DNA of 64,000 nt. Source: Lachnoclostridium sp. An169. GTDB lineage: Bacteria > Bacillota > Clostridia > Lachnospirales > Lachnospiraceae. Both the position numbers and the translations under genes were made by a program. The stretch lies in NCBI RefSeq assembly GCF_002160525.1, contig NZ_NFKT01000001.1, positions 124,001-188,000 on the forward strand, in the 5' to 3' direction. Within the stretch, counting starts at the first letter, position 1, and the number at the start of each line of letters is the position of its first letter. Below the pieces are notes generated by a model. It saw only the letters and a list, made by a program, of their open reading frames with translations. It made no database searches and was not told the origin of the DNA. This document shows positions 15,972-31,952 of this stretch, in pieces.

Positions 15972-16016
15972 TTTGTCAAAAATGTGAAAGGATTGTGTGC
16001 GGCAGAAGGAATATGG

Positions 16017-16091: not shown

Positions 16092-16142
16092 AAAGCGTAT
16101 GTTAATAAAATGTTAAATTTTGAAACAAAGAGGACATAATTT

Positions 16143-18080
16143 ATGAAGAAGTTGATTAATTTTAGAAATTCAAGAACAAGAATGATTTTACTCTGCCTCG
16201 TAGATATACTTACTCTTACAGTGCATCCTTTTCTGGCAATTATTATGCGATATGAGATGCATTATTCGTGGGTGCCTGCGGATTATCTGCACAGTATAAG
16301 GTCGTATTTAATTATTAATATTGCCACTACGCTGATTATTTTTCTGATTTTGAATCTGTATAACAGTATCTGGAGTTTTGCAGGGATGAATGAGCTTGCG
16401 CTGATAGTGATCGCCTGCGGGTTGTCAACTGTAATACAGGCATTTGGCATGCAGATACTGGCTCTCAGTGTTCCGCGAAGTTTTCATGTGTTTTATTTTT
16501 TCCTTTTGACAATGACTACAACCATTACCAGGTTCTCTTATAAAGCCCTTCGTGCCATAAAGAGCAGTTGGAAGAAGCAGAGCGGACATGTGTATCAGAC
16601 TCTTGTGATCGGTGCGGGAGAGGCTGGCAGCATGATTATCCAGGAATTGAAATTCAGTTCTCATCTGAACAGCAGAGTTGTCGGAGTGATCGATGATAAT
16701 CCGTCGAAAAAGGGAAAATATATTCATGGCGTAAAGGTGCTTGGAAACAGGGATATGATCATTCCGGTGGTGGAAAAATACGGCGTGGATGAAATTATCC
16801 TTGCCATTCCTTCAGCAAGTCCGAAGACAACAAGAGAGATCCTTGAAATCTGCAATCAGACATCGTGTAAATTGAAGATTCTTCCCGGAATGTATCAGTT
16901 CATTACGGAAGAAGTGAATGTCTCAAAACTGCGTGAGGTTTCCATAGAAGATCTGTTGGGAAGAGACCCGATTAAGATTGATATGGACAGCGTAAAGGGA
17001 TATATAGAAAATAAAACAATCCTTGTAACCGGAGGCGGCGGTTCAATCGGAAGCGAACTTTGCAGACAGGTTGCAAAATGTAACCCTCGGAGACTGATTA
17101 TCTTTGATATCTATGAGAATAATGCATATGACATTCAGCAGGAATTGAAACATGATTATCCGCATCTTGACCTTGTTGTACTGATCGGCTCAGTTCGTAA
17201 TACAAAGAGAATAGAATCCGTAATGGAATCATACAGACCAGATGTAGTATATCATGCTGCTGCACATAAACATGTGCCTTTAATGGAAGACAGTCCAAAT
17301 GAAGCGATTAAAAATAACGTGTTTGGAACGTATAAGACTGCCCGTGCAGCAGATAAGTTCGGCGTGCGGAGATTTGTTCTTATATCCACAGATAAGGCAG
17401 TGAATCCGACGAATATCATGGGCGCATCAAAACGAATTTGCGAGATGGTGATACAGACTTTTAATCGCTATTCGAAAACAGAGTATGTGGCAGTGAGATT
17501 CGGAAATGTGCTGGGAAGTAATGGAAGCGTAATTCCGCTGTTCAAAAAGCAGATGGCAGCAGGTGGACCGGTTACGGTAACTCATCCGGACATTATACGT
17601 TATTTTATGACTATTCCGGAAGCTGTTTCTCTGGTAATGCAGGCAGGAGCGTATGCAAAAGGCGGAGAGATATTTATTCTTGATATGGGAAAACCGGTTA
17701 AGATAGCAGATCTGGCAAAAAATTTGATCAGGCTTTCCGGGTATACTCTTGGCGTTGACATGGAAATAAAGTATACTGGTCTCAGACCGGGAGAAAAACT
17801 GTACGAGGAATTGCTTACAAAAGAAGAAGGAATTACAAAAACGGACAATGATCTTATCTTTATAGGGAAACCGCTTGTGTTTGATGAAGTTCATTTCCTG
17901 AGCGAACTGAAAAAACTTGAGAAGGAAGCGGCAGATGAAAGTCCCTATGTCAAGCAGATTGTATCCAATATTGTTCCTACCTATCATATCAGGCAGGAAG
18001 ATAAAGAACGCGATGCAAGAATATATAAAGAGCTTCATGAACTGGGAGAAGACAGCCAGGAGAAGCCGGTTATGGAATAG
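16143..18080 (+). CDS. Membrane nucleotide-sugar 4,6-dehydratase, CapD/PglF family
   Basis: Predicted to convert UDP-GlcNAc to the 4-keto-6-deoxy sugar, the first step toward 4-amino-trideoxy sugars. The 645-residue protein has four N-terminal transmembrane helices (about 1-140). A CoA-binding-like Rossmann domain has VIGAGEAGSMI near 155. The catalytic short-chain dehydrogenase domain begins with VTGGGGSIGSEL near 297. This is the standard FlaA1/CapD/PglF layout and length. AGAGGA precedes the ATG. It heads the locus, directly followed by an aminotransferase and a sugar-phosphate transferase, the PglF-PglE-PglC order. Confidence 0.9.
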   Translation: MKKLINFRNSRTRMILLCLVDILTLTVHPFLAIIMRYEMHYSWVPADYLHSIRSYLIINIATTLIIFLILNLYNSIWSFAGMNELALIVIACGLSTVIQAFGMQILALSVPRSFHVFYFFLLTMTTTITRFSYKALRAIKSSWKKQSGHVYQTLVIGAGEAGSMIIQELKFSSHLNSRVVGVIDDNPSKKGKYIHGVKVLGNRDMIIPVVEKYGVDEIILAIPSASPKTTREILEICNQTSCKLKILPGMYQFITEEVNVSKLREVSIEDLLGRDPIKIDMDSVKGYIENKTILVTGGGGSIGSELCRQVAKCNPRRLIIFDIYENNAYDIQQELKHDYPHLDLVVLIGSVRNTKRIESVMESYRPDVVYHAAAHKHVPLMEDSPNEAIKNNVFGTYKTARAADKFGVRRFVLISTDKAVNPTNIMGASKRICEMVIQTFNRYSKTEYVAVRFGNVLGSNGSVIPLFKKQMAAGGPVTVTHPDIIRYFMTIPEAVSLVMQAGAYAKGGEIFILDMGKPVKIADLAKNLIRLSGYTLGVDMEIKYTGLRPGEKLYEELLTKEEGITKTDNDLIFIGKPLVFDEVHFLSELKKLEKEAADESPYVKQIVSNIVPTYHIRQEDKERDARIYKELHELGEDSQEKPVME

Positions 18081-18094
18081 AGGTGTTTGATAAA

Positions 18095-19312
18095 ATGAAA
18101 AATATGCATATTGCATTTTCACCTCCGGATATTACGGAGAAGGAAATAAATGAAGTGGTTGATACTCTGAAAAGCGGTTGGATTACTACTGGACCAAAGA
18201 CAAAAGAATTTGAAAGAAGGCTGGCGGCTTTTATAGGGACGTCCAGGGTCGCCTGTCTGAATTCTGCTACAGCGTGCGCCGAGATGATACTCAGAATTCT
18301 TGGTATCGGAGAGGGAGATGAAGTGATAACTTCAGCGTATACCTATACTGCATCAGCGAGTGTTATCGCACATGTAGGCGCTAAGATTGTATTAGTCGAT
18401 ACGGCTGAAGATTCTTATGAAATGGACTACAACAAGCTTGAAGAAGCTATTAACGAGCGCACAAAAGCAATTATTTGTGTTGATATTGGCGGAACAGTAT
18501 GCGATTATGACAGAGTGTTTGAAATTGTAGAACAAAAAAAAGCTTTGTTTAAGGCTTCCACAGATATTCAGAAGAAAATAGGACGTGTTGCTGTTCTGGC
18601 AGATGGCGCGCACGCACTTGGAGCAGAGAGAGATGGTGTTCGCTGTGGGAAAATCGCTGACTTTACGAGCTTTTCATTCCATGCGGTTAAAAATCTGACT
18701 ACAGCTGAGGGCGGCGCTGCAACCTGGAAAGACATCGAAGGGGTTGATAATGATGAGCTGTATAAACAGTTCATGCTGCTGTCTCTTCATGGACAGTCAA
18801 AAGATGCACTTGCAAAGACACAGCTTGGCGCATGGGAATATGATGTTGTGGCGCCTTATTTCAAATGTAATATGACTGATATTATGGCAGCGATAGGTCT
18901 GGCTCAGCTTGAGAGATACCCGGGAATGCTTGCAAGAAGAAAACAGATTATTGAGCGTTACAATGACGGTTTTAAGGACCTGGATATAAGTGTGTTAGAC
19001 CATTATCATGACCATATGGTGTCGAGTGGACATCTTTATCTTGTTCGGGTGAATGGGTGCGATCGTACAGCAGCTAACAGAATTATTGAAAAGATGGCAG
19101 AAGCTGGGATTGCAACGAATGTCCATTATAAACCGCTGCCGCTTTTGACAGCGTACAAAAATCTGGGATTTAGGATTGAAGACTATCCGAACGCCTATCA
19201 CATGTTTGAAAATGAGATTACTTTACCACTTCATACAAAGCTTACAGATGAAGAGGTAGATTATATTATTTATTATTTCAGAAAAATAGTATTGGAACAG
19301 GTAGCAAAATGA
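18095..19312 (+). CDS. DegT/DnrJ/EryC1/StrS PLP-dependent sugar aminotransferase
   Basis: Predicted to transaminate the 4-keto sugar from the dehydratase before it, giving a UDP-4-amino-4,6-dideoxy sugar. The 405-residue protein has the family's N-terminal SGWITTGPKTKEFE and the PLP lysine in SFHAVKNLTT near residue 197. The C-terminal NVHYKPLPLL segment is typical of sugar aminotransferases. ATG 18095 is chosen, nine bases after AGAGGTG; GTG 18083 is an in-frame alternative. It overlaps the next gene by ATGA. No dedicated N-acetyltransferase is seen nearby, so the new amino group may stay free. Confidence 0.9.
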   Translation: MKNMHIAFSPPDITEKEINEVVDTLKSGWITTGPKTKEFERRLAAFIGTSRVACLNSATACAEMILRILGIGEGDEVITSAYTYTASASVIAHVGAKIVLVDTAEDSYEMDYNKLEEAINERTKAIICVDIGGTVCDYDRVFEIVEQKKALFKASTDIQKKIGRVAVLADGAHALGAERDGVRCGKIADFTSFSFHAVKNLTTAEGGAATWKDIEGVDNDELYKQFMLLSLHGQSKDALAKTQLGAWEYDVVAPYFKCNMTDIMAAIGLAQLERYPGMLARRKQIIERYNDGFKDLDISVLDHYHDHMVSSGHLYLVRVNGCDRTAANRIIEKMAEAGIATNVHYKPLPLLTAYKNLGFRIEDYPNAYHMFENEITLPLHTKLTDEEVDYIIYYFRKIVLEQVAK

Positions 19313-19989
19313 AACCTTGGAGTGAACTTCCCGAAAACATGCAAAATGATGCAGTGCGGAAATATTATCAGATACTGGAAAAACATCGAAAAGGCCTTGT
19401 CATAAAACGCCTGTTTGATATTTGTGTATCTCTGATTTTGATAATTATTCTTTCCCCGATATTGCTTATTTTGAGTTTGATGATAAAATTAGACTCAAAA
19501 GGACCGGTTTTATTCAGGCAGGTGAGAGTTACTCAGTATGGAAAAGAATTCCGAATCTGCAAATTCCGCACGATGGTAAATGATGCGGAGAAGAAGGGAA
19601 CACAGGTGACGACAAAGAATGATTCCCGTGTAACCCGTGTGGGTAAAATGTTAAGAGGATGCCGGCTGGATGAGCTTCCGCAGCTTTTTAATGTGTTGAA
19701 AGGCGAGATGACTTTTGTCGGTACAAGACCGGAAGTGGTTAAATATGTAAATTGTTATACCGAAGAAATGCTGGCAACTCTTTTACTTCCTGCGGGGATT
19801 ACATCACAGGCAAGTATTGAATATAAGGATGAAGAAAAATTACTGGAAAATGCTGAAAACGCAGATGAAGTGTACGTGGAGAAGGTTCTCCCGGATAAAA
19901 TGAAGTATAATTTGAAATCGTTGGAGGAATTTAGCGTACTAAATGATTTAAAAACAATGATTCTTACAGTTATTGCTGTGGTGAAATGA
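19309..19989 (+). CDS. Initiating sugar-phosphate transferase, WcaJ/PglC family
   Basis: Transfers the first sugar-1-phosphate from a UDP-sugar to undecaprenyl phosphate on the inner membrane face, starting polymer assembly. The 226-residue protein has a soluble N-terminus of about 30 residues. KRLFDICVSLILIIILSP marks the re-entrant helix, and FRICKFRTM, CRLDELPQLFNVLKGEM and FVGTRPE are the bacterial sugar transferase signatures. The short form without extra transmembrane helices is PglC-like. Coupling to the aminotransferase by ATGA suggests the amino-trideoxy sugar is its substrate. Confidence 0.92.
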   Translation: MKPWSELPENMQNDAVRKYYQILEKHRKGLVIKRLFDICVSLILIIILSPILLILSLMIKLDSKGPVLFRQVRVTQYGKEFRICKFRTMVNDAEKKGTQVTTKNDSRVTRVGKMLRGCRLDELPQLFNVLKGEMTFVGTRPEVVKYVNCYTEEMLATLLLPAGITSQASIEYKDEEKLLENAENADEVYVEKVLPDKMKYNLKSLEEFSVLNDLKTMILTVIAVVK

Positions 19990-20005
19990 TTGTACAGGAG
20001 TGGAT

Positions 20006-20998
20006 ATGATAGTTTCAGTTTGCGTCATTGCATACAATGAAGAAGAATATCTTGGAAATATTTTAGAAAATATAAAAGAACAGACTTTTCCTCATGATCA
20101 GATGGAGATTGTCCTTGTTGACAGTATGTCCAAAGATGGAACAAAAGCGATTATGGAAAAGTTTCAGAAAGAAGAAAAAGACTTCAAATCGGTTATTGTT
20201 TTGGATAATCCAGGCAGGCGGCTCCCTGCCGGCTGGAATGTGGCATTAAAAAACTACACAGGAGACATTATTTTAAGAGTTGACGCGCATTCTATGATTC
20301 CAAAAGATTTTGTGGCAAAGAATGTCGCTGTTTTAGAAAGCGGGGAATATGTTTCCGGAGGAATACGGCCTAATATTATTCAGGGGAGTACTCCTTGGAA
20401 GGAGACACTCCTGATGGCGGAACAGTCTATGTTTGGAAGCAGCATTGCTTCTTATCGGCGCAGCGGAAAAAAAGGGTATGTGAAGACTCTGTTTCATGGA
20501 GCTTATCGGCGCGAAGTGTTTGAAAAAGCCGGTGAATTCAATGAAAAACTCGGCAGGACAGAGGATAATGAAATGAATTACAGAATCAGAAAAGCCGGGT
20601 ATAAACTTTGCTATTCACCCGAAATCATTTCTTATCAGTATACCAGAAGTTCTCTAAAAGCCATGCTGAAGCAGAAGTTTGGAAACGGATACTGGGTTGC
20701 GCTTACACTTAAAGTATGCCCGGGCTGTCTGTCTTTATACCATTTTATTCCAGCAGCATTTGTATTTGGTATATTGATTACTACTTTATTGGGAATTTTG
20801 GGGTATCCCCAATTTGCTGCAGTTATGTGGGGACTGTACTGGCTTATGGCTATTATTATGTCAATACAGGCAGTTATCGGCCATCGTAAGTTCTGGCAGG
20901 AATTACTTCTGCCTATCCTTTTCTTCCTGCTTCACATCAGCTATGGAATCGGAAGCTTCGCCGGACTTATTAAACTGCCGTTTTGGAAGGCAAAATAG
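20006..20998 (+). CDS. Family 2 glycosyltransferase with C-terminal membrane helices
   Basis: An inverting GT-A glycosyltransferase predicted to extend the lipid-linked oligosaccharide. The N-terminus VSVCVIAYNEEEYL, the nucleotide-binding VDSMSKDGT, the metal site RVDAH and a TEDNEM motif near 190 are visible. Three or so hydrophobic segments occur after residue 245, placing it at the membrane as in ExoA-like enzymes. ATG 20006 lies five bases after CAGGAG, while GTG 20000 overlaps it. The donor and acceptor sugars cannot be read from sequence. Confidence 0.87.
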   Translation: MIVSVCVIAYNEEEYLGNILENIKEQTFPHDQMEIVLVDSMSKDGTKAIMEKFQKEEKDFKSVIVLDNPGRRLPAGWNVALKNYTGDIILRVDAHSMIPKDFVAKNVAVLESGEYVSGGIRPNIIQGSTPWKETLLMAEQSMFGSSIASYRRSGKKGYVKTLFHGAYRREVFEKAGEFNEKLGRTEDNEMNYRIRKAGYKLCYSPEIISYQYTRSSLKAMLKQKFGNGYWVALTLKVCPGCLSLYHFIPAAFVFGILITTLLGILGYPQFAAVMWGLYWLMAIIMSIQAVIGHRKFWQELLLPILFFLLHISYGIGSFAGLIKLPFWKAK

Positions 20999-21012
20999 AT
21001 AAGGAGAGAAAG

Positions 21013-21876
21013 ATGGAAATTTTGTCCGAACAGGAACTGAAAAAACTGCAGAAGATAAGCATTGATATGGCAAAATGTTTTGCTGATTTCTGCAGGAAAC
21101 ATGGACTTACCTGCTATCTCTGTGGCGGCGGATGTATCGGCACAATCCGTCATGGAGGAATGATTCCATGGGACGATGATCTTGATTTTTTTATGCCGCG
21201 TGACGATTATGAAAAAGCATGGCGTTTATGGAAAAAGGAAATGAAGGACAGCAGGTATGTATTGGAAAAATCCGATGCCTCCCATGTTGATCACAATTTA
21301 TTTTTTACACTGAGGGATAAAGAGACGACTTTGATCAAGCCATATCAGAAAGATCTGGATATTACACACGGAGTTGCACTCGATGTGCTTCCTTTAGACG
21401 GGTATCCGGATAAGAAATGGCAGAGAAGGCTGCAGTGTTTCTGGGCACTGATCTATTCGCTTTACTGTGCGCAGCTTGTGCCGGTAAATCATGGGAAAAA
21501 AGTCGAAATGCTTGGGAAAATCGCTCTGGCAGTGGTCCCCTCCAGAAAAATACGTTATTGTATCTGGAGAATGGCAGAAAAGAAGATGACAAAATATAAA
21601 ATTAAGGAATGTAAAGGTATTACAGAACTTTGTTCTGGCCCGGGATACATGAAGAACTGGTATCCAAGAGAAGCATTTGCAAAAGCTGTTTATCGGCCGT
21701 TCGAAGACACCCAGATGCCGATTCCGGTGGGATATGACGACTATTTGAAAATTGCCTTTGGAGATTATATGCAGATGCCTCCGGAAGAAAAACGGGTCGG
21801 ACATCATGAGGCACTGTTTATGGATCTGGATAATAGTTATGTGAAATACAGGGGAAAGTATTATGCACAAAATTAG
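21013..21876 (+). CDS. LicD family phosphotransferase
   Basis: LicD/fukutin enzymes transfer phospho-alditols or phosphocholine from CDP donors to glycans. The 287-residue protein has the family hallmark GGGCIGTIRHGGMIPWDDDLDFFMPRDDYE split over about 35-70, with the metal-binding DDDLD and a later DVLPLDGYP. AAGGAG lies just before ATG 21013; an upstream in-frame ATG lacks such a site. It overlaps the next gene by 14 bases. No choline uptake or activation genes (licABC) are present here, but a CDP-ribitol pathway is, so ribitol-5-phosphate is the better donor guess. Confidence 0.88.
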   Translation: MEILSEQELKKLQKISIDMAKCFADFCRKHGLTCYLCGGGCIGTIRHGGMIPWDDDLDFFMPRDDYEKAWRLWKKEMKDSRYVLEKSDASHVDHNLFFTLRDKETTLIKPYQKDLDITHGVALDVLPLDGYPDKKWQRRLQCFWALIYSLYCAQLVPVNHGKKVEMLGKIALAVVPSRKIRYCIWRMAEKKMTKYKIKECKGITELCSGPGYMKNWYPREAFAKAVYRPFEDTQMPIPVGYDDYLKIAFGDYMQMPPEEKRVGHHEALFMDLDNSYVKYRGKYYAQN

Positions 21877-22840
21877 TGTTATTGTACCGGTTTATAACGT
21901 TGAAAAATATCTGGAAAAATGTGTAGAGTCTATTATTGCACAGACGTACAGCAATCTGGAAATTATTCTGGTAGATGACGGAGCTACAGACAGTTCAGGG
22001 GTGATCTGTGACAGATACGCAGAAAATGATAAAAGGATAAAAGTGATCCATAAAGAAAACGGAGGTCTGAGCTCTGCAAGAAATGCCGGAATTGTTGCGG
22101 CAGAAGGTGAGTATATCGGGTTTGTGGACAGTGATGACTATATTGAAAAAAATATGATAGAGCTTCTGGCAGAAGAGCTTATCTCAAATGATGCCGATAT
22201 GTCTGTGTGTGGGGTTTATAATGTTTATCAGGAAAGAAAAATACCCCAGTGCAGTAAAATTGAACGGTTTGTATGTGGGGGAGAGGAAGCATATAAACTG
22301 TTGATGATAGGAGAAAAAATTCCGGGAACAGTGTGCAATAAATTATTTAAAAGAAAAATGATTCAGCAGCTGCGTTTCCCGGAGGGAAAGCTTTATGAAG
22401 ATGCATTCTTTCATATCAATCTTATGCCGTTAATAAAAAAAGTTGCTGTTAATACCACGCCGATGTATTTTTATGTACACAGAAAAGGCAGTATAACTAC
22501 AGCAAAGTTTAACAGTAGAGGTATGGATGTAATTGAAGCATACGAAAAGAATTATCTGTCAGTTAAGCAGAATTACCCTGCAATTATTGATGTGGCAGAA
22601 TTTCGGGTCGAGTGGGCTTATTTTGTTGTAATGGACCGCATGATGGAATGTGACCATTACTGGACCATACCGGAATATAAAAAAGTAAAGAGGTTTTTAA
22701 AGAAAAAAGCACCTGCTATACTGACAAGCAGATACTTTAGGAAATCAAGACGAATCGGGGCATTAGCGTTGATGCTTAATATAAAATTATATTGTTTGTT
22801 ATCCAGGATTAACAGGGCTCAAAGAGAAAAACTTGCATAA
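21863..22840 (+). CDS. Family 2 glycosyltransferase
   Basis: A GT-A glycosyltransferase of the EpsJ/WcaA type. The 325-residue protein starts ISVIVPVYNVEKYLEKCVESI and carries DDGATDSSG, ENGGLSSARN and the metal-binding FVDSDDY near residue 93. GGGGAAAG lies before the ATG, within the end of the LicD gene. It should add one sugar to the growing repeat unit in the cytoplasm. The specificity is unknown. Confidence 0.88.
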   Translation: MHKISVIVPVYNVEKYLEKCVESIIAQTYSNLEIILVDDGATDSSGVICDRYAENDKRIKVIHKENGGLSSARNAGIVAAEGEYIGFVDSDDYIEKNMIELLAEELISNDADMSVCGVYNVYQERKIPQCSKIERFVCGGEEAYKLLMIGEKIPGTVCNKLFKRKMIQQLRFPEGKLYEDAFFHINLMPLIKKVAVNTTPMYFYVHRKGSITTAKFNSRGMDVIEAYEKNYLSVKQNYPAIIDVAEFRVEWAYFVVMDRMMECDHYWTIPEYKKVKRFLKKKAPAILTSRYFRKSRRIGALALMLNIKLYCLLSRINRAQREKLA

Positions 22841-22849
22841 GAGGTTAAT

Positions 22850-23941
22850 GTGTCGATGAGAATATGTTTTGTTGATTATGATATTACTGTAACAGGCGGA
22901 GCAGAGCAGGTCAGTGTCTCTCTGGCGAATGAACTGTGCAAAAGCCACAAAATATATATTTATTCTATTAATGCTGAAAACGATTCTATTCCATATACGC
23001 TTGACAAAAGCGTTTTATGTGTGTGGGGGCCAAAAGGGAAGAAACGTTTAAATGAAATGATCAAGGCCAATTTTTCTCCTTTTATAAAATTTGTGAAACG
23101 GGAAAAAATCGATATTGTACTGTCAATGGGAAACTATCCTGCATTAATCGTATCGCTTACCCGCTTTTTTAATAAGGCAAAGTATGTTTTCTGTGATCAT
23201 GGAGCGTTGATTAATCAGTGGAAGCAGAAAGATGTCACAGCTATTCGGTTTTGGGATATGCTTCTCGCTGACAGAGTGGTTGTACTGACGGAAAGAACAA
23301 GGGATGATTACTGCAGGCTGTTTTATTGTCCAAAGAAAAAAGTCAGATGTATATATAACTGGAATGACGTCTTGCCGGCAGCAAAAGACTACGATGCTGA
23401 TAGTAAAAAAATTATTTCGGTTGGCAGATTCGGAAAGGAAAAAGGGTATGATATGCTTCCGGATATTGCTGAAAAGATTTTTCGAAAGCATCCGGAATGG
23501 GAATGGGATGTATATGGTGACGGGGAGACCTTTTTATCAGTGAAGGAAGCGATTAAGGAAAGAGGAATAGATGACAGAGTACATTTGCGCGGAAACCAGA
23601 AAAATGTGAAAAGTCTGTATCAGGACTACGCTTTTCTGATCCTTCCCTCATATAGAGAAGGAATGCCTCTTGTTCTGCTAGAGGCAAAGGCAAACCGGCT
23701 TCCCCTGCTCAGTTTTGACATTTTAACCGGTCCGAGAGAAATCATAAGAGATGGGATCGATGGTTATCTGATTCCGCCGTATAATGTAGAGAAAATGGCC
23801 GAGAAAGCCGTGAGGCTGATAGAAGATAAAGAATTAAGGAAGAGAATGTCGGATAATTCCCAGGATAATCTGGATAAATTCAGTAAGGAAGAAATTGAAA
23901 AGAAGTGGATGGCACTGTTTGCGGAACTCAAGAAAAAATAA
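22850..23941 (+). CDS. Family 4 glycosyltransferase
   Basis: A retaining GT-B glycosyltransferase. The 363-residue protein has VTGGAEQVSVSLA in the N-terminal domain. The C-terminal domain has SVGRFGKEKGYD near 187, the conserved PSYREGMPLVLLEAKA near 266 and GPREII. GTG 22850 is taken, five bases after AAGAGG; ATG 22856 is equally possible. An ATG at 22848 is out of frame and stops at once. It probably adds a hexose to the repeat unit. Confidence 0.87.
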   Translation: MSMRICFVDYDITVTGGAEQVSVSLANELCKSHKIYIYSINAENDSIPYTLDKSVLCVWGPKGKKRLNEMIKANFSPFIKFVKREKIDIVLSMGNYPALIVSLTRFFNKAKYVFCDHGALINQWKQKDVTAIRFWDMLLADRVVVLTERTRDDYCRLFYCPKKKVRCIYNWNDVLPAAKDYDADSKKIISVGRFGKEKGYDMLPDIAEKIFRKHPEWEWDVYGDGETFLSVKEAIKERGIDDRVHLRGNQKNVKSLYQDYAFLILPSYREGMPLVLLEAKANRLPLLSFDILTGPREIIRDGIDGYLIPPYNVEKMAEKAVRLIEDKELRKRMSDNSQDNLDKFSKEEIEKKWMALFAELKKK

Positions 23942-23972
23942 TAGTTGGAATTAAAACAAAAGGAGAATGAAA

Positions 23973-24665
23973 ATGATTTTTGGAGCTATTTTGGCCGGTG
24001 GAAAAGGTACAAGGATGGGAATTGATAAGCCGAAGCAGTTTTTGATGCTTGGAAATAAGCCGATTATTATTCATACGATAGAGAAGTTTCTGGTTTGCGA
24101 CAGAATTGATAAAGTTTTTGTTGGAGTACATCCCGACTGGGTTGATTATACAGAGGATTTAATCGGGAGATATATCCATACGGATAAAGCATTGTCAATT
24201 GTTCCGGGAGGAAAGGACAGAAATGGAACGATTTTTAATATTGTAGATCAAATTGAAAGTGAATATGGAGAAAACGACAGTCACATTATTGTCACTCACG
24301 ATTCGGTAAGACCTTTTGTGACGTTGCGAATTATCGAAGAAAATATAGATGCGGCTTTACAGTATGGTGCCTGCGATACAGTTGTCAATGCCGTAGATAC
24401 TATTGTTGCATCAGATGATGGAAATATGATTTCTGAAATCCCAGACAGAAGAACAATGTTTCAGGGGCAGACACCACAGTCATTTAATATGAGTCTGCTG
24501 AAAAAAATGTATCTCGACTTAAATGATGGAGAAAAGGAGATTCTTACAGATGCCTGTAAGATCTGCGTGGTGAGAGATATTCCAGTTAAACTTGTGCGGG
24601 GCGAGACTTCGAATATTAAAATAACTACAATTGATGATATGAAAATTGCAAAAGCGATGATATAG
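23973..24665 (+). CDS. TarI/IspD-like CTP-dependent cytidylyltransferase
   Basis: Predicted to make CDP-ribitol from ribitol-5-phosphate. The 230-residue protein has the nucleotide-binding AILAGGKGTRMG at the start and THDSVRPFV near 110. FQGQTPQSF near 168 is also shared by IspD and TarI. The partner dehydrogenase next door favours TarI over isoprenoid IspD. ATG 23973 is chosen because AGGAG at 23961-23965 is seven bases upstream, while ATG 23967 nearly touches it. Confidence 0.85.
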   Translation: MIFGAILAGGKGTRMGIDKPKQFLMLGNKPIIIHTIEKFLVCDRIDKVFVGVHPDWVDYTEDLIGRYIHTDKALSIVPGGKDRNGTIFNIVDQIESEYGENDSHIIVTHDSVRPFVTLRIIEENIDAALQYGACDTVVNAVDTIVASDDGNMISEIPDRRTMFQGQTPQSFNMSLLKKMYLDLNDGEKEILTDACKICVVRDIPVKLVRGETSNIKITTIDDMKIAKAMI

Positions 24666-24675
24666 GGAGTTTCAT

Positions 24676-25689
24676 ATGTTAAATTATGTATATCAGTTGA
24701 TCAATCCGAAAACAATCAGTGTAAAATATGAAGAGATTGACTGTGACAGCCGGGTAATTGTAAAGCCTGAGTACATGGCGGTATGCCATGCGGATCAGCG
24801 CTATTATCAGGGAAAACGCGATGTGAAGATTTTGAGGAAAAAGCTGCCGATGGCATTGATCCATGAAGCATGCGGAAAGGTGCTCCACGATCCGACCGGT
24901 ACATTTAAGCCGGGAGAGAATGTGGTTATGATTCCGAATGTTCCGGGTGAGAATTTCAATGGAGAAGTGTATGAGAATTATACAGGCGGTGGTTTCCTCA
25001 GCAGTGGTAAGGATGGGTTCATGAGAGAGCTGGTTGATCTGCCACCGGATCGACTGGTCAGATATGGAGAGATTGACAAAAGAATTGCGGCAATCACAGA
25101 GTTTGTCAGTGTAGGAATGCATGCTGTCTCAAGATTTGAATTATTGGCCAGAAAATCAAAAGAGAGAATTGGTATCTGGGGAGATGGAAGCCTTGCATTT
25201 ATTGTGAGCAGTATTTTAAAAAGGAAGTATCCGGAGAGTAAAATTTGCGTAATCGGTCGAAATATCAATAAACTTCATCAGTTTTCTTTTGCAGACGAGC
25301 TTTTTCTGGTAGATGAGCTGAATGAGAAGTTTACGATTGACCATGGTTTCGAGTGCGCCGGAGGGGATGGAAGTTATTATGCCATTGATGATATGATTCG
25401 GTATATAAATCCACAGGGGACTGTGGTTTTAATGGGAGTATCAGAGAGCAAAGTTCCTATAAATACCAGAGATATACTGGAGAAGGGCCTGATTTTTGTA
25501 GGATGCAGCAGGTCGGGACGTGAAGATTTTGAGAATGCGGTGTCTTTTTTGCAGGATAAAAAGATTCAGCGCAGACTGAGAACAATTATTTATGAAACTG
25601 AGGCTGTAAAGGATATTGCAGATATACACCGTGTGTTCAGTGTGGATATGGACACAGATTTTAAAACCGTTTTTCGATGGGAAATTTAG
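24676..25689 (+). CDS. TarJ-like ribulose-5-phosphate reductase
   Basis: A medium-chain alcohol dehydrogenase predicted to reduce ribulose-5-phosphate to ribitol-5-phosphate for the cytidylyltransferase before it. The 337-residue protein has the zinc-region VCHADQRYYQGKRD, HEACGKV, a Rossmann turn GIWGDGSLAF near 172 and GFECAGGDGSYY. These match TarJ rather than sugar-alcohol dehydrogenases of catabolism. GGGAG precedes the ATG and only 10 bases separate it from the TarI-like gene. Together the pair supplies CDP-ribitol. Confidence 0.85.
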   Translation: MLNYVYQLINPKTISVKYEEIDCDSRVIVKPEYMAVCHADQRYYQGKRDVKILRKKLPMALIHEACGKVLHDPTGTFKPGENVVMIPNVPGENFNGEVYENYTGGGFLSSGKDGFMRELVDLPPDRLVRYGEIDKRIAAITEFVSVGMHAVSRFELLARKSKERIGIWGDGSLAFIVSSILKRKYPESKICVIGRNINKLHQFSFADELFLVDELNEKFTIDHGFECAGGDGSYYAIDDMIRYINPQGTVVLMGVSESKVPINTRDILEKGLIFVGCSRSGREDFENAVSFLQDKKIQRRLRTIIYETEAVKDIADIHRVFSVDMDTDFKTVFRWEI

Positions 25690-25707
25690 AAATATATGGA
25701 GGATCGT

Positions 25708-26628
25708 ATGAGAAAAAGCAGAGTTATAGCTGTAGCGTTGGCGATGGGAATTGGCTTGGCAGGCTGTTCTCCTACAACTCGAACAGTTGCAGAAATACCG
25801 GAGACAGAATATACACAGGCAGGATATTCCGTAAAAGCAGAAGTTGAAGAAGATGGTACTGTAAAAATCACTTACGGATTGATTGGTGTAAAAGATGATA
25901 AAATAAAATATATTTATTTGGATCAGATTGAAGAAAATCCGGCCGAGGACAGATTTTTGATGACAAATAAAGAAATGGAAAATGCATATGGCCTGTCGTA
26001 CATTTCTGATCATGGAGAGTGGAGTACCCAGGTGCGGGCTCTTGAAAATTATATTGCAGGACATACAATGACCATAGAAGAAGTAAATGCGATACCGACA
26101 TATGAAAAAGATGAAGATAATCTGAATGTACCAACAGAAGGATCTGACCTGGAGGCCGGATGTGAGTTAGATATTACGGATTTTCTTGACGTGATTAATG
26201 ATGCGTACGATAATCTCGAAGATACCAATGCGACAAGGCTCGGAATTGGCGAAGATGTTCGAATTCATAATGCGGACAATCGTATTGATGTGACATTTTC
26301 ATTTGTGGGAACAGACTATAGATATAAGATTTGTTATGAACATTTAGATACTTATTCAGTATATGGAGAACCGGGGGCAGATATCCGGTCTCAGAAGGAA
26401 AAGGCGGAAGAACAGCCTGAGCTTTTCGAGTGGCGGAAGGGGATTGAAGGCTTCGAAGAGTACATTATGGGGCTGAATATGACGGAAGCTTATGGTGTTG
26501 AGACATATGATCCGGGAAACGGCATAGAAACTGCACTTCCAAAAGCGGGGACGGACCTGGCAGAGGTATGCAATATAGATTTGGATAAATTCATTATTAC
26601 TTTACGTGAAGCGGCAGGCAGATTATAA
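25708..26628 (+). CDS. Lipoprotein of unknown function inside the glycan locus
   Basis: The 306-residue product has a lipoprotein signal peptide with the lipobox LAGC, so it should be anchored to the outer face of the membrane. The mature part seems internally duplicated. The segment with DLEAGCELDITDFLDVINDA (about 148-170) is echoed by a C-terminal one, DLAEVCNIDLDKFIITLREA. I do not recognise the family. ATG 25708 follows GGAGG by five bases; ATG 25696 overlaps that site. A lipoprotein between sugar-nucleotide and polymerase genes is unusual; a role in polymer assembly or anchoring is only a guess. Confidence 0.7.
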   Translation: MRKSRVIAVALAMGIGLAGCSPTTRTVAEIPETEYTQAGYSVKAEVEEDGTVKITYGLIGVKDDKIKYIYLDQIEENPAEDRFLMTNKEMENAYGLSYISDHGEWSTQVRALENYIAGHTMTIEEVNAIPTYEKDEDNLNVPTEGSDLEAGCELDITDFLDVINDAYDNLEDTNATRLGIGEDVRIHNADNRIDVTFSFVGTDYRYKICYEHLDTYSVYGEPGADIRSQKEKAEEQPELFEWRKGIEGFEEYIMGLNMTEAYGVETYDPGNGIETALPKAGTDLAEVCNIDLDKFIITLREAAGRL

Positions 26629-26652: not shown

Positions 26653-28152
26653 ATGATAAATAAGTTTTTTTTACAATTTAGTAAAAAGGAAGCGGCAGGC
26701 TACCTTTTTGGTGCAGTATGGAGCGTTCTTTCACTTGTAGTGGTTAACTGTGCAAGTGCATATGGTCAGTATAATCTTATGTTAGTGGGAATGTTGCTTC
26801 TGTTTGTGGGAATGGCTGCATTTTGTCTGCTTGAAATTAAGCGGAGAATAATGTTTTTTCTATTTTATCTTGCAATGTTTCTTTTTTTGATAGGAAGGAT
26901 TTTGATTCCTGCGTTGCAGGGATCTGCGTGGTGGAACAATTATTCGGTCAGTGCCAATGTTTTTGCAGTACGGGCAATAAGTTATTCAATGGTGGCAATT
27001 GCGGGCGGAGCTGTATTGACAGAAATAATAGTTCGACTGTTTAATAATAAAGAAAAGGTGAGCAAAGTTCAAAAGAAGCACTTTGTGAGTCATGAGTCTT
27101 TGATTTTTGTCCTTCGTATTATTCTACTAATATGTATGATATGCTTTTTTATAAGAGAGGCAGATAAACTGCTTTTTATGCGGGGGAAAGCTTATGAAGA
27201 TTATTTTTCTTTATATCATACAAGAATGCCATTTTTTGTTACATTTCCTGCAAGTTGCATGCAATTTTTTCTGTGTATGTTTCTGGCACTAAAGCCATCT
27301 AAAAAAGAATCATTTCTTTGGCTTTTTGTTTATATTCTTTCTGCTGTTCCAATGTTACTTATTGGAGTTCGTAATAACATTATTCTTAATTGCCTTTTTG
27401 CATTTGTTTATTATTTTTTACGCGATGCAATAAGGGGGCGGCAGGAAAAGCCGTGGATTGGCAGAGTAGAAAAAGGAATTGTTATTTGTGCGATCCCTGT
27501 TATGGTATTGTTCCTGGGAGCATATAATTATATCCGTGATGACAAGGCAGTAACACTTTCACCGGTTAATTTAATTGTAGATTTTGTGTATAAACAGGGG
27601 ACCACTTATGACACGGTTCTACAGGGATATGTTTATCAGAATCAATTACCATGGCGGGAAAATCAGGTGTATACTTTAGGAGCTGTTACGGATTCATTTT
27701 TTTACAGCTCGTTGGGAAAAGAAATTTTTGACCTTGAAGATATAGGAGAGGGGAATGGATTGCGTCAGGTTTATAATGGACATACTTTTACACATGCGAT
27801 TTCTTATGTTGTTTTAGGCAAATATTATATAGGAGGAGAAGGCAGAGGATCTTCGTATATTATTGAAAATTATCTGGATTGGGGGTATCCGGGTGTTGTC
27901 TTTTTCAGTATGCTTATAGGAGTGATTTGTTCGGTTATTCCGCAGTCGTTTGGCAAAAAGTGGTTGTGGTCGACGATCTGTCTTAATATTGCTTTAAATA
28001 TCTTTTTTACACCAAGAGCGGAATCGACTGCCTTTATCACGTTTATTTTTTCGTATAGATTTTGGGTATGTATTGCGGGCTGTGTTTTTGCGGCAAAACT
28101 GTGGGAATTATATTTCAGTAAACTTAAGATATTTAGAAAATGGGTGAAGTAG
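26653..28152 (+). CDS. Wzy-like oligosaccharide repeat-unit polymerase
   Basis: A very hydrophobic 499-residue protein with about twelve transmembrane helices and a large outer loop (about 300-410) rich in Gly and aromatic residues, the layout of O-antigen or capsule polymerases. Family members share little sequence, so the call rests on topology, length and position beside the flippase and glycosyltransferases. It would join flipped repeat units outside the membrane. The gene is the most AT-rich here, full of TTT, TTA and ATT codons. AGAGGA precedes the ATG. Confidence 0.72.
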   Translation: MINKFFLQFSKKEAAGYLFGAVWSVLSLVVVNCASAYGQYNLMLVGMLLLFVGMAAFCLLEIKRRIMFFLFYLAMFLFLIGRILIPALQGSAWWNNYSVSANVFAVRAISYSMVAIAGGAVLTEIIVRLFNNKEKVSKVQKKHFVSHESLIFVLRIILLICMICFFIREADKLLFMRGKAYEDYFSLYHTRMPFFVTFPASCMQFFLCMFLALKPSKKESFLWLFVYILSAVPMLLIGVRNNIILNCLFAFVYYFLRDAIRGRQEKPWIGRVEKGIVICAIPVMVLFLGAYNYIRDDKAVTLSPVNLIVDFVYKQGTTYDTVLQGYVYQNQLPWRENQVYTLGAVTDSFFYSSLGKEIFDLEDIGEGNGLRQVYNGHTFTHAISYVVLGKYYIGGEGRGSSYIIENYLDWGYPGVVFFSMLIGVICSVIPQSFGKKWLWSTICLNIALNIFFTPRAESTAFITFIFSYRFWVCIAGCVFAAKLWELYFSKLKIFRKWVK

Positions 28153-28153: not shown

Positions 28154-29587
28154 GTGGCTTTTACAAATTTAATTTTTTTCTTTGTGTTTTTTCCATGCTG
28201 TCTTGCGGGATACTATGTAATTGAAGCAGTATCCCGCAAATGGAAATTTTTAGAAAGAGCACGGGTCAGGGATATATTTCTTTTGGCTGCAAGTATTGCT
28301 TTTTATGTATGGGCAGGACTGGACAATATATTTTTTATACTCGGGTATATCCTGTTGGTGTTTGTGGCAGGCTGGCTTGTATATATGCGGGATGTTACCA
28401 GATCTCACCGGTTCTGGATTGTAATATCACTGTTTACACTTGTGGCAATACTTTTTATATACAAATATACGGGATTTGTATATGAAATTTTTACGAGGGG
28501 TGAGGCTCAGTTCAGTATTACGGCACCGTTGGGACTTTCCTTTATTACTTTTTCAGCGATATCTTATCTGGTGGATGTTTACAGAAAAGACGCTGAAGCA
28601 GGAAACATACTTGATGTAGCACTGTATCTTACATTTTTCCCAAAAGTGAGCTCTGGTCCCATACAGCTCTGGAAGGATTTCAAGCCGCAGATAGAAAGAA
28701 AGAATCCGGATCTTGAGCGTGCAGTGAACTGTGTTAACCGGATTATAATAGGCATGTCTAAAAAGCTGATTCTTGCTGATACATTCGGAAGTGTGGTCTC
28801 TGATATTTAGGGAAATGTAGTGTATGGTATTGATACATGGACCGCGTGGGGCGGTGCATTTCTTTACATGCTTCAGATATATTATGATTTTGCAGGGTAT
28901 TCGGATACTGCCATTGGTCTGGCAGGACTCTTTGGATTTCAGGTAAAAGATAATTTCAATTTCCCTTATGTTTCAAAGTCGATTTCAGAGTTTTGGAGAA
29001 GGTGGCATATTTCTCTCGGTACCTGGTTCCGGGAATATATCTATATACCTCTCGGAGGAAACCGCAAAGGAATGTTGAAAACACTTTGCAATTTGTTTAC
29101 GGTATTCCTTCTGACAGGCATATGGCACGGCGCAGGTTGGAATTACATATTGTGGGGTGTGCTGAATGGTGTTTGCGTTGTTGTGGAACGCTGTGTCCGT
29201 GAAAAAACGTGGTATATAAAAATACCTGGAGTCATTAAATGGGCAGTTACAATGTTTGTCGTATATATCAGCTGGGTATTCTTCCGTTTGACCAGTCTTT
29301 TGGATATTAAACAATATTTTAAGATTATGCTGGGAATGGTGAGCTTTGAATATATCGACCTGTCATTTTCATATTTTTTTGAGTTTAAAATTGTAATACT
29401 GATGATAATTGCTGTATTAGGCGCTACAGTGTTTTCTGCTAAAAAATTGAAAAAGGCTGCTGAGATGGCGAATCAACAACCTGTACTTTTTGTTATTCAG
29501 GAAGCGTTTCTGATGATTTTATGCGTGGTTAACATAATGTGTATGGTCAATGCAACTTATAGTCCGTTTTTGTATTTTCAGTACTAG
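28154..29587 (+). pseudogene. MBOAT O-acyltransferase gene interrupted by an in-frame TAG
   Basis: Membrane-bound O-acyltransferases of the AlgI/DltB type move acyl groups across the membrane for glycan acetylation. The frame runs from GTG 28154 to 29587 (about 477 codons, normal for the family) but has a TAG at 28808-28810 after ...FGSVVSDI. The same frame continues with GNVVYGIDTWTAWG and the core motifs FWRRWHISLGTWFREYIYIPLGGN and GIWHGAGWNYILWG, which holds the catalytic His. Both halves keep the family sequence and no frameshift is needed, so one base change (for example TGG to TAG) explains it. An AGGGA followed six bases later by GTG 28820 might allow restart. The upstream 218-residue part alone lacks the active site. 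Confidence 0.85.
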
Positions 29588-29595: not shown

Positions 29596-31008
29596 ATGTT
29601 GTTACTAATGAAAAAAATCAGAATAGCAGTTCTCGTTTTGTTTTTTGCCATTATTCTGATCCCTGTCGCTGCATTTAACCGGGAAGAAAATGTCGTCTCT
29701 GAAATTGACAACAGAGCTTTGATGAATAACCCGTTCGGAGAAAACTATAATACAGAGGGAGAAGACAGAGACCTTACAGACGATCTGGAAACATATGTCC
29801 AGGATCGAATTGGTTTCCGGGATGATATGATTTTGGGATACACATTGCTTAATGATAAACTTTTCCATAAAATGGTTCATCCCACATATGACTATGGAAA
29901 GGATGGATATGTTTTCTTTAAGACCGGAAGAAATACTCGTTTCGGAGAATTCCATTATGCCTTTGCCCAGTTTATTAAAAAGGTGCAGGATTACTGTGAT
30001 GAGAGAGGGGTGCCATTTGTCTTTGTTTTCAACCCGGCAAAAACTACGGTTTTGTCAGATGAGCTTAGAGAAGGAATTAATTATGATGCAGAATGGGTTC
30101 AACAGTTTTTGGAATGTCTGGATGAACTTGGAGTGAATTATATCGATAATACTCCTCTGATGGAAGAAAAAACGGAAGAGGGAGAAGCGGTTTATAATAA
30201 GGTGTATAATGCGGGACACTGGAATGATCTTGGCGCATTTTACGGATGTAATGCTATTCTCGAATATTTTACGCAGTTCTTTCCGGATTTGCATATTAAT
30301 TCGAAAGAAGATTTTACAATTGAAGAACATTTAAACACCTCGCTGATGGTTTCGGAATTTCCGATTTATGAGTATGAGCCTGTATTTGAACCGATTGATC
30401 AGGTAGAGAACATTGCCGATCAGTATGTGGACGAGCTTGAAATGGATAGCCAATACAGAACGTTTGCTTATTATTTAAATCCGAAAAGAATATCAGAAGG
30501 AGCTCCAAAGGTATTATCATTTCAGGGAAGTTACATGAATGGTATGGGATATAAGTTTCTGGAAAATAGTTTTGGCGAGTATATTGTTGTCCATGATTAC
30601 CAGAATACTTTAAATCTGGATTACTATTTTAATATTTTCCAGCCGGATTGTGTTATATTTGAGACTGCTGAGTATACATTGACGTCCGGTTATTATAACT
30701 TGGAAAATATGGTAGAGGTTTCTTTTAATGAAGGACTTTCAGAGGAAAGTTATTCAGAGGCCCGCTCTGAGCAGATGCCTGCGAATATGATTGAATTTGT
30801 ACAAGGAAACCGCCTGACAGAAATCCATGTTTCGGGACTCCCTGAAAACACCAGGTATGCGTATGTTTCAAATGGTTCGCAAATTTTTGATCTCATCAGA
30901 GATGAATCGTCATATACGGCTACTGTGGAGAAGGCAAATGTAGACGAGAATGAAATACAGATTATTGTTATTCTGGACACAGGAGAAAGGATTTGCTATA
31001 CTGAGTAG
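29596..31008 (+). CDS. AlgX/AlgJ-like SGNH-type protein, partner of the MBOAT
   Basis: The 470-residue protein has one N-terminal membrane anchor or uncleaved signal (about 6-27) and an outer domain. The features ENRx-like SEIDNRAL, DRIGFRDDMILGY, a KTG-rich YVFFKTGRNTRF and NAGHWNDLGA recall AlgX/AlgJ and DHHW proteins, which complete acetyl transfer to polysaccharides. The location straight after the MBOAT gene supports this. GAGAG precedes ATG 29596; ATG 29608 lacks a ribosome site. If the MBOAT is inactive, this protein has lost its acyl supply. Confidence 0.72.
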   Translation: MLLLMKKIRIAVLVLFFAIILIPVAAFNREENVVSEIDNRALMNNPFGENYNTEGEDRDLTDDLETYVQDRIGFRDDMILGYTLLNDKLFHKMVHPTYDYGKDGYVFFKTGRNTRFGEFHYAFAQFIKKVQDYCDERGVPFVFVFNPAKTTVLSDELREGINYDAEWVQQFLECLDELGVNYIDNTPLMEEKTEEGEAVYNKVYNAGHWNDLGAFYGCNAILEYFTQFFPDLHINSKEDFTIEEHLNTSLMVSEFPIYEYEPVFEPIDQVENIADQYVDELEMDSQYRTFAYYLNPKRISEGAPKVLSFQGSYMNGMGYKFLENSFGEYIVVHDYQNTLNLDYYFNIFQPDCVIFETAEYTLTSGYYNLENMVEVSFNEGLSEESYSEARSEQMPANMIEFVQGNRLTEIHVSGLPENTRYAYVSNGSQIFDLIRDESSYTATVEKANVDENEIQIIVILDTGERICYTE

Positions 31009-31055: not shown

Positions 31056-31952
31056 ATGGAAAAACATGCGTATTTAATAATTGCCCACCATCAGTTAGAA
31101 CTCTTAAAAAAACTTCTGGCACTTTTGGACGACAGAAGAAATGACATATATATCCATTTGGGAAAAAATATGTGGGACGATAAAGATATACTGCAGGATA
31201 CGGTAAAAGAGTCTGCGTTGTATTTTGTGTCTCCAATGCAAGTGAATTGGGGCGGATACAGTCAGATAGAATGTGAATTACGACTTTTTTCGGAGGCTTC
31301 AAAAAGGAAATATAGTTATTATCATCTTTTGAGTGGAGTGGATCTGCCCTTGAAGACACAGGACGAGATACATGATTTCTTTCAAAAGCATAACGGAAAA
31401 GAATTTATATATTTCTGTCCCCAGTCGTTCTGTAGAAAATCGCTGTTTAAGTGCGCACAATACCACTTCCTTCAGGAAAAGATTGGAAGAAGACAAAAGG
31501 GCATTCTGTATCTGATTGAAAAAGTGTTACTGACAGTACAGAAGAAATTAAGAATATCCAGGTTAAAGGAAAATATTGAATATGCGATGGGAGCAAATTG
31601 GGTCAGTATAACACATGAGCTGGTGTGCTATATTCTAGATAAGCAAAAAGATATCTATGAAATGTTTCATGCGACGCTTTGCTGTGATGAATTTTTTATT
31701 CAGACATTGGTGTGGAATTCGCCATACTTTAAGGCCCGGGTGTTTTCTTTGGAGGATGACTATTTTGCATGTCTGAGGTTAATAGACTGGTCACGGGGGA
31801 AGCCGTATATTTGGAGAAAGAGTGATTACGAACAATTGATTCGAGCTCCGCATCTGTTTGCAAGAAAATTTGATGAGGAGACCGATTCGGAGATAATTGA
31901 TTGTATATACGATTTTGTCGGAAAAGACAAAATAAAAGGTGATGGTATATGA
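31056..31952 (+). CDS. GT14 core-2/I-branching-type glycosyltransferase
   Basis: A family 14 (Branch) glycosyltransferase, classically adding beta-1,6-GlcNAc or xylose branches. The 298-residue protein has AYLIIAHHQLELLKKLLALL at the start and YIHLGKN. YSYYHLLSGVDLPLKTQDEI near 88 and the catalytic-side CCDEFFIQT near 207 are also family hallmarks. AAAGGGG precedes the ATG. It would put a side branch on the repeat unit; the sugar is unknown. It overlaps the flippase gene by ATGA. Confidence 0.85.
   Translation: MEKHAYLIIAHHQLELLKKLLALLDDRRNDIYIHLGKNMWDDKDILQDTVKESALYFVSPMQVNWGGYSQIECELRLFSEASKRKYSYYHLLSGVDLPLKTQDEIHDFFQKHNGKEFIYFCPQSFCRKSLFKCAQYHFLQEKIGRRQKGILYLIEKVLLTVQKKLRISRLKENIEYAMGANWVSITHELVCYILDKQKDIYEMFHATLCCDEFFIQTLVWNSPYFKARVFSLEDDYFACLRLIDWSRGKPYIWRKSDYEQLIRAPHLFARKFDEETDSEIIDCIYDFVGKDKIKGDGI

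Follow-up and report, generated by a model that had tools for sequence, protein, structure and literature searches.

A 64,000-nucleotide stretch of the genome of Lachnoclostridium sp. An169 (contig NZ_NFKT01000001.1, positions 124,001 to 188,000; referred to here as the window) contains a run of plus-strand genes that probably constitutes a Wzx/Wzy-type cell-wall glycopolymer locus making a choline-free relative of the teichoic acid of pneumococcus and other mitis-group streptococci. Eight proteins of the locus (PglF, DegT, PglC, GT2a, LicD, GT2b, TarI, and TarJ) have strong streptococcal counterparts, and Wzy and its counterpart TarP form a weaker ninth pair. The sequences suggest that a choline-free form of the pneumococcal-type wall polymer exists outside the streptococci. 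A first-pass annotation had placed a gene set for an amino sugar–initiated ribitol-phosphate polymer resembling pneumococcal teichoic acid at positions 16143–25689 of the window, and those of its inferences that could be tested computationally all gave favorable results. The genes that it named are all present, open, and on the plus strand, and Pfam and NCBIfam concur with their identities, but Wzy (26653–28152) and Wzx (31949–33463) lie outside the interval given, the plus-strand gene run extending past the end of TarJ (25689) to 33463. The genes with streptococcal counterparts are as follows (AATGal, 2-acetamido-4-amino-2,4,6-trideoxygalactose; GT, glycosyltransferase).

16143..18080, plus strand: PglF/CapD-type UDP-GlcNAc 4,6-dehydratase, in the Spr0092 slot (PF02719, 415 bits; PDB WlaL, 4.3e-94)
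18083..19312, plus strand: DegT, predicted UDP-AATGal aminotransferase of the Spr1654 kind (PDB 6ewj, 7.7e-168; next match, 2.7e-54)
19309..19989, plus strand: PglC-type phosphosugar transferase, in the Spr1655 slot, predicted to load undecaprenyl phosphate (PF02397, 197 bits)
20000..20998, plus strand: GT2a, probable transferase of the second sugar onto AATGal (342 bits and 44.5% identity to a 344–amino acid GT of S. infantis D6t1)
20983..21876, plus strand: LicD3-type phosphotransferase, predicted CDP-ribitol:glycan ribitol-phosphate transferase (PF04991, 160 bits; cut-off, 22.6)
21863..22840, plus strand: GT2b, Spr1223-type GT predicted to act on ribitol (approximately 334 bits and 49.5% identity to a GT of S. 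mitis SK667)
23967..24665, plus strand: TarI, D-ribitol-5-phosphate cytidylyltransferase (NF001183, 339.6 bits; cut-off, 166; PDB 4jis, 3.6e-81)
24676..25689, plus strand: TarJ, ribulose-5-phosphate reductase (PDB 6xh9, 1.7e-90; in a clade with the TarJs of genomes with a LicD3-type LicD)
26653..28152, plus strand: Wzy polymerase, distant counterpart of TarP (PF14296, 296 bits)

Streptococcus pneumoniae was represented by proxies, namely S. mitis SK564 and SK667, S. pseudopneumoniae, S. infantis D6t1 and UC921A, S. timonensis, S. shenyangsis, and Streptococcus sp. SK643, and proxy genes were assigned to Spr or Sor numbers by our own matching of gene order to the text of the papers. The literature was drawn on as passages of PMC5936713, PMC10167101, PMC12017771, PMC4649388, PMC5448163, PMC13385700, PMC10434233, and PMC12413058, with pathway roles taken from PMC4649388. 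Against a shuffled-sequence baseline of 23% to 33%, identity to the streptococcal counterpart was 40.7% for PglF (S. mitis SK667), 61.2% for DegT and 56.2% for PglC (both S. infantis), 54.6% for TarI, and 59.3% for TarJ, and the matches of DegT, PglF, and PglC scored 564, 438, and 276 bits, respectively. Wzy scored 205 to 223 bits against the Wzy-type protein that occupies the position of TarP in S. mitis SK667 and S. infantis D6t1. In these two genomes the LicD3-type LicD starts a run of LicD, GT4, GT2, and Wzy genes, in which the GT4 scores 54 and 46 bits, respectively, against the window's GT4 and the GT2 333 and 328 bits against GT2b. This order fits both the consecutive numbers of licD3 (spr1225), the GT genes spr1224 and spr1223, and tarP (spr1222) (PMC12017771, PMC4649388) and the lic3 region (PMC5448163). 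The S. mitis SK667 match of GT2b adjoins both LicD3 and TarP. LicD is followed in S. mitis SK564 and S. pseudopneumoniae by a GT2 alone (170 and 315 bits, respectively) and then by another LicD-bearing protein.

The LicD of the window is of the LicD3 type and not of the choline type of LicD1 and LicD2, a statement of orthology and not of activity. It is 56.6% identical to streptococcal LicD3, compared with 31.3% for LicD1 and 29.3% for LicD2, and one LicD per genome in four Streptococcus genomes matched it at 364.6 to 383.2 bits (57% to 59%), with the other LicDs of those genomes scoring at most 111.4 bits. In a tree of 72 open reading frames (ORFs) (E value of 1e-10, 200 to 420 amino acids, without duplicates, and with a 516–amino acid protein of genome G468 and one 438–amino acid protein omitted), the window, clostridial, and streptococcal LicD3 sequences formed a clade of 12 (support of 99/97), within which Streptococcus adjoined genome G389 (100/100). 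LicD1 and LicD2 were placed elsewhere, grouped with a second LicD of G389 (99/94). An aspartate-rich motif, W63-D64-D65-D66 together with D68, was invariant across 21 sequences. LicD3 has been assigned as a ribitol-phosphate transferase, and LicD1 and LicD2 are described as choline phosphotransferases (PMC4649388, PMC13385700); the position in the LicD3 clade and the identity to LicD3 favor the earlier view of the window's LicD as a ribitol-phosphate rather than a choline transferase.

The TarJ and GT2b trees likewise grouped the window with streptococcal proteins. In a tree of 23 TarJ ORFs, two long-branch rows of which were flagged, the window, G389, G380, G435, and Streptococcus formed a clade (98/99), with the TarJs of G362 and G162, genomes that have both kinds of transferase, outside it. 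In a tree of the best 38 GT2b sequences, S. mitis SK667 and S. infantis adjoined G389 (100), together with the window and G380 (95), and S. pseudopneumoniae and S. mitis SK564 fell on neighboring branches with G435 and G468. In a tree of 40 TarI sequences of 210 to 280 amino acids, Streptococcus was placed beside, not within, the clostridial LicD3 set (83, from the SH-like approximate likelihood-ratio test only). Common descent is therefore well supported by the four trees, whereas the direction of transfer is not.

The genome of the window (98.47% complete, 90 contigs) encodes a single LicD and yielded no match to PF04464, the family of TagF-type phosphotransferases, or to PF01633, that of choline kinases; the LicD, PF04464, and PF01633 searches were positive in two, three, and five of 14 control genomes, respectively. 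The statement of the first-pass annotation that no choline genes are seen thus extends genome-wide for choline kinase. Mitis-group teichoic acids carry choline. With no choline kinase match, one LicD, and a Wzx that is not TacF-like, neither phosphocholine decoration nor a TacF flippase was indicated, and we therefore class the locus as a functionally similar variant of the pneumococcal pathway rather than as one of its members.

Among 392 genomes of the order (the TarJ and LicD counts were taken to cover the same 392, number and handles agreeing), TarJ was found in 14 and LicD in 96, both at 1e-20. The LicD scores showed a gap, with seven matches of at least 340.6 bits, in five genomes, followed by one of 223.3 and then by scores of at most 143. 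All five genomes with a LicD3-type LicD were among the 14 with TarJ (hypergeometric 7.5e-7 with the window's own genome excluded, in a count whose genomes are not independent, G162 and G362 being of the same genus). A scan with DegT kept 80 named loci, of more than 80, including mitis-group streptococci; the genomes of 50 of the 80 loci, chosen by hand and including four streptococci, were searched for TarJ and LicD, with 14 Bacteroidota, four streptococcal, and 12 other loci making up the 30 omitted. TarJ was present in seven of the 50, a LicD of at least 340 bits in six, and both in five. PF04464 was absent from four of 16 genomes with TarJ (those of the window, G389, G380, and G176), and in the first three of these the LicD3-type LicD is clustered with TarI and TarJ. 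It could be argued that LicD transfers phosphocholine or another CDP-alcohol and that an unrecognized enzyme uses CDP-ribitol, given the activity of LicD1 and LicD2 and given G176, which indicates that enzymes of families other than LicD and PF04464 may use CDP-ribitol. We regard this as very unlikely in the face of the missing choline kinase match, the LicD3-level scores and identity, the placement of LicD inside the LicD3 clade and apart from LicD1 and LicD2, and the co-occurrence of LicD3-type LicD with TarJ across genomes.

Some further LicD arrangements were observed. A 516–amino acid frame of G468 (L218, G468:C296, 2076–3626) contains two LicD3-type domains and adjoins a GT2b homologue, and tandem LicD3-type copies are also present in G162 and G362. 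A second group of LicDs (L086:7119–9869, L103:11892–13500, and L135:11930–14570, as well as L130 and L136) scored 223 to 281 bits against the window's LicD and lies beside an IspD-like cytidylyltransferase in three of the five loci. The one such enzyme tested, that of L086, was below the cut-off of the TarI model and adjoins an extended short-chain dehydrogenase/reductase; the group perhaps represents another CDP-alditol system. IspD-like ORFs were found in 12 of 55 LicD loci examined.

Synthesis of CDP-ribitol by TarI- and TarJ-like enzymes, as earlier proposed, is favored by the sequences of both proteins, TarI scoring at twice the cut-off of NF001183 and TarJ being identified as a ribulose-5-phosphate reductase by its PDB match. 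The two best PDB matches of TarI are named ribitol-5-phosphate cytidylyltransferase (3.6e-81 and 6.3e-77), and a TarI-type gene adjoins TarJ in all 16 loci of relatives. The enzyme belongs to the IspD superfamily (PF01128), and its next two PDB matches, 3f1c and 2vsh (3.4e-76 and 3.5e-75), bear IspD-type names, so that it might be taken for an IspD serving isoprenoid synthesis only. The other 25 IspD-type chains match from 1.2e-23, however, and a distinct IspD on contig 51 scores higher than TarI (209 versus 142 bits). Together with the NF001183 score and the adjacent TarJ, this leaves the IspD interpretation with virtually no chance of being correct. The case of a cytidylyltransferase that makes only CDP-methylerythritol, which the first-pass annotation had named as fatal to its proposal, is ruled out at the sequence level by the NF001183 score and the separate IspD.

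DegT scored 561.6 bits against 6ewj, whereas none of the other 56 listed chains of solved structure exceeded 187.8 bits. A simple count of mentions found 6ewj once in the paper on Spr1654, which describes this protein as the pneumococcal teichoic acid aminotransferase and proposed maker of UDP-AATGal, its substrate use still to be determined. The PDB match and the streptococcal comparison support the earlier assignment of an AATGal-type amino sugar. Lachnospiraceae account for two of the three highest-scoring named matches of DegT (L093, and L094 of Candidatus Bariatricus). PglF- and PglC-type enzymes are found in both AATGal and bacillosamine pathways, and the best PDB match of the dehydratase is WlaL, presumably the PglF of C. 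jejuni. An initiating 4-amino gluco sugar, the bacillosamine precursor of PglF/PglE/PglC systems, is nevertheless an unlikely alternative to AATGal, given the scores of the aminotransferase and the lack of a PglD-kind acetyltransferase above cut-off among the proteins scanned. No sugar N-acetyltransferase scored above cut-off in the 20 proteins scanned with Pfam or in the 10 scanned with NCBIfam, as the first-pass annotation had noted for the genes; a NeuD/PglB-type NCBIfam model with a cut-off of 160.8 bits matched the NH2-terminal part of PglF with a score of only 28.8. The 4-amino group is therefore predicted to remain free. The pneumococcal main chain is stated to be zwitterionic as a result of its phosphodiester and a free 4-amino group on AATGal (PMC12017771).

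The dehydratase gene is present in all eight streptococci, and the GT that adjoins it is a 344–amino acid GT2a-like protein in S. infantis D6t1 and S. timonensis and a 276–amino acid protein unlike GT2a in the other six. The second sugar is added by Spr0091 (glucose) or Sor_1862 (galactose) (PMC4649388), and the numbers of these proteins adjoin those of the dehydratases. We infer that GT2a is of the galactose kind.

The remaining genes of the locus and its conserved edge are as follows.

8525..10060, plus strand: LytR-CpsA-Psr (LCP) protein, at the conserved edge of the site (PF03816, 132 bits)
22850..23941, plus strand: GT4 glycosyltransferase (PF00534, 127 bits)
25696..26628, plus strand: putative lipoprotein of no known family, with a lipobox-like start (no Pfam or NCBIfam match)
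28154..29587, plus strand: MBOAT O-acyltransferase (PF03062 in the second part only)
29596..31008, plus strand: AlgX-like SGNH acyltransfer protein (PF16822, 38.5 bits)
31056..31952, plus strand: GT14 glycosyltransferase of the Core-2/I-branching type (PF02485, 77 bits)
31949..33463, plus strand: Wzx-type flippase, not TacF-like (no Pfam match; 650 bits against a protein encoded in the G380 locus)

The genes of the locus overlap or nearly touch, and those past TarJ (25696–33463) comprise the lipoprotein, Wzy, MBOAT, AlgX-like, GT14, and Wzx genes. Predicted promoters and terminators numbered 61 and 12, compared with 52.6 and 10.2 expected, and showed no excess over chance; operon structure is therefore read only from the common strand and tight spacing. 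A homologue of the lipoprotein directly precedes Wzy in locus L217 (91 bits), and the lipoprotein was rejected as TarQ for want of a match. The Wzx-type protein scored 112 bits against the protein in the equivalent slot of L105; a phmmer comparison of Wzx with S. mitis SK667 TacF gave no match, and TacF was rejected as the flippase of the locus. A single in-frame TAG (28808–28810) interrupts the MBOAT gene, whose reading frame continues beyond it; the interruption may reflect a pseudogene, variation, or a sequence error. Upstream of the locus (8525–15919) lie genes for the LCP protein, which has counterparts at the matching place in the congeners G020 and G029, a GH25 hydrolase, and an L,D-transpeptidase. 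The latter two (10184–15919) have similar Y_Y_Y-like repeats (PF07495) in common, which might bind the wall polymer by analogy with pneumococcal choline-binding repeats.

We propose the following pathway. PglF and DegT would produce UDP-AATGal, and PglC would transfer AATGal-1-phosphate to undecaprenyl phosphate; GT2a would then add a hexose, for which galactose is a guess. TarJ and TarI would supply CDP-ribitol, from which LicD would place ribitol-phosphate on that hexose, and GT2b, perhaps with GT4 and GT14, would add further sugars. The lipid-linked AATGal-hexose-(phosphoribitol)-sugar unit would be flipped by Wzx and polymerized by Wzy, and the LCP protein would probably attach the polymer to peptidoglycan. 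The chain would lack choline and be zwitterionic by virtue of its phosphodiester backbone and the 4-amino group left free on AATGal. Gene identities, orthology groups, linkage, and the lack of TagF-type and choline kinase matches were observed directly; the reactions, sugar identities, linkage positions, anchoring, and charge are predicted from them, with the order and linkages borrowed from streptococcal papers. The additional GT4, GT14, and acyltransferase genes indicate a unit larger than that of streptococci, and GT4 is not a clear counterpart of Spr1224, so that ribitol-phosphate might instead be a side-chain decoration on a capsule, in which case the polymer would be no pneumococcal-type teichoic acid. 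This arrangement has a low, though appreciable, probability: LicD, GT2a, and GT2b all correspond to streptococcal enzymes of backbone synthesis, among which that of the Spr1223 type acts on ribitol (PMC4649388).

Several observations weigh against a polymer of the pneumococcal type. The activity of LicD3 is assigned without an assay in the passages cited, and the fold does not decide the matter. A predicted structure of LicD (mean pLDDT of 90.7) had human FKRP as its best fold match (Z score of 14.8 over 173 residues at 3.2 Å; next family, 8.6), with a Z score of 14.1 for an FKRP entry with CDP-ribitol (6kam), and FKRP uses CDP-ribitol as donor (PMC4873967). The sequence relation is nonetheless remote (profile E value of 1.1e-8, with a best stretch of 49 positions), and a likeness to FKRP cannot distinguish ribitol from choline. 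The match supports the LicD fold of the model, not its substrate, and was set aside as functional evidence, other LicDs being expected to have the same fold. With regard to the amino sugar, the stereochemistry of the Spr1654 product is not shown in the passages of its paper, and the AATGal trio occurs widely and in very different gene neighborhoods and therefore says little by itself about the polymer. GT2a has a counterpart in just two of the eight streptococci, and a TarP-like gene lies beside LicD3 in only two of the four Streptococcus lic3 regions examined. The score of GT4 against the GT in the Spr1224 slot is weak (46 to 54 bits; 24.0% identity versus 23.6% for shuffled sequences), and the identity of Wzy to TarP, 30.2% to 30.5%, is close to the 26% to 27% of shuffled sequences, so that this link is drawn from the bit scores (205 to 223). 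In a phmmer comparison with streptococcal proteins, nothing in the locus resembled TarQ or TacF. Across genomes, the metagenome-assembled G468 has LicD3-type proteins but no TarJ was found in it, G162 and G362 combine LicD3-type LicDs with 8 and 10 PF04464 matches, respectively, and G176 has TarI and TarJ (L045, G176:C12) without a PF04464 match or a LicD at 1e-20.

A search for the gene order in relatives, as the first-pass annotation had recommended, revealed similar clusters in G389:C6 and L217 and a partial one in G380. The G389:C6 cluster consists of PglF, DegT, PglC, GT2a, TacF-like, GT2b, LicD1-like, LicD3, Spr1224-like GT, Wzy_C, TarI, and TarJ genes, with the same functions as in the window and a similar order. 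Its TacF-like protein scores 450 bits against S. mitis TacF, its LicD1-like LicD 364 bits, and its Spr1224-like GT 455 bits, the last only 60 bits against GT4 of the window. This near-complete cluster of the pneumococcal type (L081, G389:C6:40001–60000, 5728–19064, minus strand), in a genome of the window's family, hints from its gene content at a choline-decorated polymer outside Streptococcus; no match to licABC was found among the ORFs of C6:20001–80000, with contigs beyond not searched. L217, from an uncultured member of Clostridia, carries PglF, DegT, PglC, GT2a, Wzx, GT4, GT2b, a second LicD, lipoprotein, Wzy, LicD, TarI, and TarJ. G380 has a TarI-TarJ-GT2a-LicD group and, 6.7 kb further on, GT2b-GT4-Wzx, with neither an AATGal aminotransferase nor a dehydratase in the 60 kb examined.

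A close TarJ was found in three of the 36 congeners searched, namely G007, G020, and G029. In all three, a TarIJ locus that includes a PF04464 gene adjoins one side of the site, the MreB-RecD2-ComF-CdaA-CdaR-LCP side in G020 and G029 and the Coh-DegP-FtsW-DegV-RsmH side in G007, no single contig displaying both flanks. Given these TagF-type TarIJ loci at the window's site, the cassette appears to have been swapped, and exchange of the wall-polymer locus seems to resemble that of serotype cassettes. A broader hypothesis, which we offer tentatively and rate somewhat below an even chance, is that the pneumococcal teichoic acid pathway is the streptococcal form of a wall-polymer cassette that clostridia carry at a single locus and that mitis streptococci acquired and scattered, with Lachnospiraceae-like bacteria keeping choline-free and perhaps choline-type (G389) forms that are swapped with TagF-type loci at one site. 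A one-locus, choline-free version would, if the proposed function is correct, provide another system for assaying LicD3-type ribitol-phosphate transfer and illustrate how the backbone can be made independently of its choline part. It would also point to a surface polymer of a Lachnospiraceae-like bacterium that is new, bears AATGal and phosphate, and is possibly zwitterionic.

The teichoic acids of the mitis group have been described as unique among Gram-positive bacteria (PMC4649388), and a literature search, in which subscription papers were mostly not covered, returned no account of such a locus outside mitis streptococci or in Clostridia. The locus resembles the mitis-group pathway for pneumococcal type IV teichoic acid in its homologues of Spr0092, Spr1654, Spr1655, LicD3, Spr1223, TarI, and TarJ, in its second-sugar GT (two of eight streptococci), distantly in TarP, and in the joint clades where trees were built (LicD, TarJ, TarI, and GT2b). 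It differs in that all genes lie in one locus, in the lack of LicD1, LicD2, TacF, and TarQ counterparts there and of a choline kinase in the genome, in the additional GT14, MBOAT, AlgX-like, and lipoprotein genes, and in its flippase. The TagF/TarL-type loci of congeners share TarI, TarJ, the chromosomal site, and the LCP neighbor, but they have their own PF04464 gene, which the window's genome lacks, and a TarJ of another clade. Human FKRP has the same fold as LicD and uses CDP-ribitol, but is remote in sequence and acts on another acceptor. TacF homologues have been noted in Clostridium species (cluster III), as a flippase only and with no function known, and Clostridium type I teichoic acids are made without TacF-like proteins (PMC13385700); a gene family of pneumococcal teichoic acid synthesis had thus already been noted in Clostridia, although the flippase of the window is not TacF-like. 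AATGal zwitterionic operons were found in diverse bacterial orders in a genome screen, and zwitterionic Bacteroides polymers shape immune responses (PMC10167101). Capsules of the B. fragilis PSA kind share with the locus an AATGal-type aminotransferase, PglC-type initiation, and a predicted free amino group, in a comparison that did not include WcfR, whereas the negative charge of the window's polymer is predicted to derive from ribitol-phosphate by way of CDP-ribitol and LicD.

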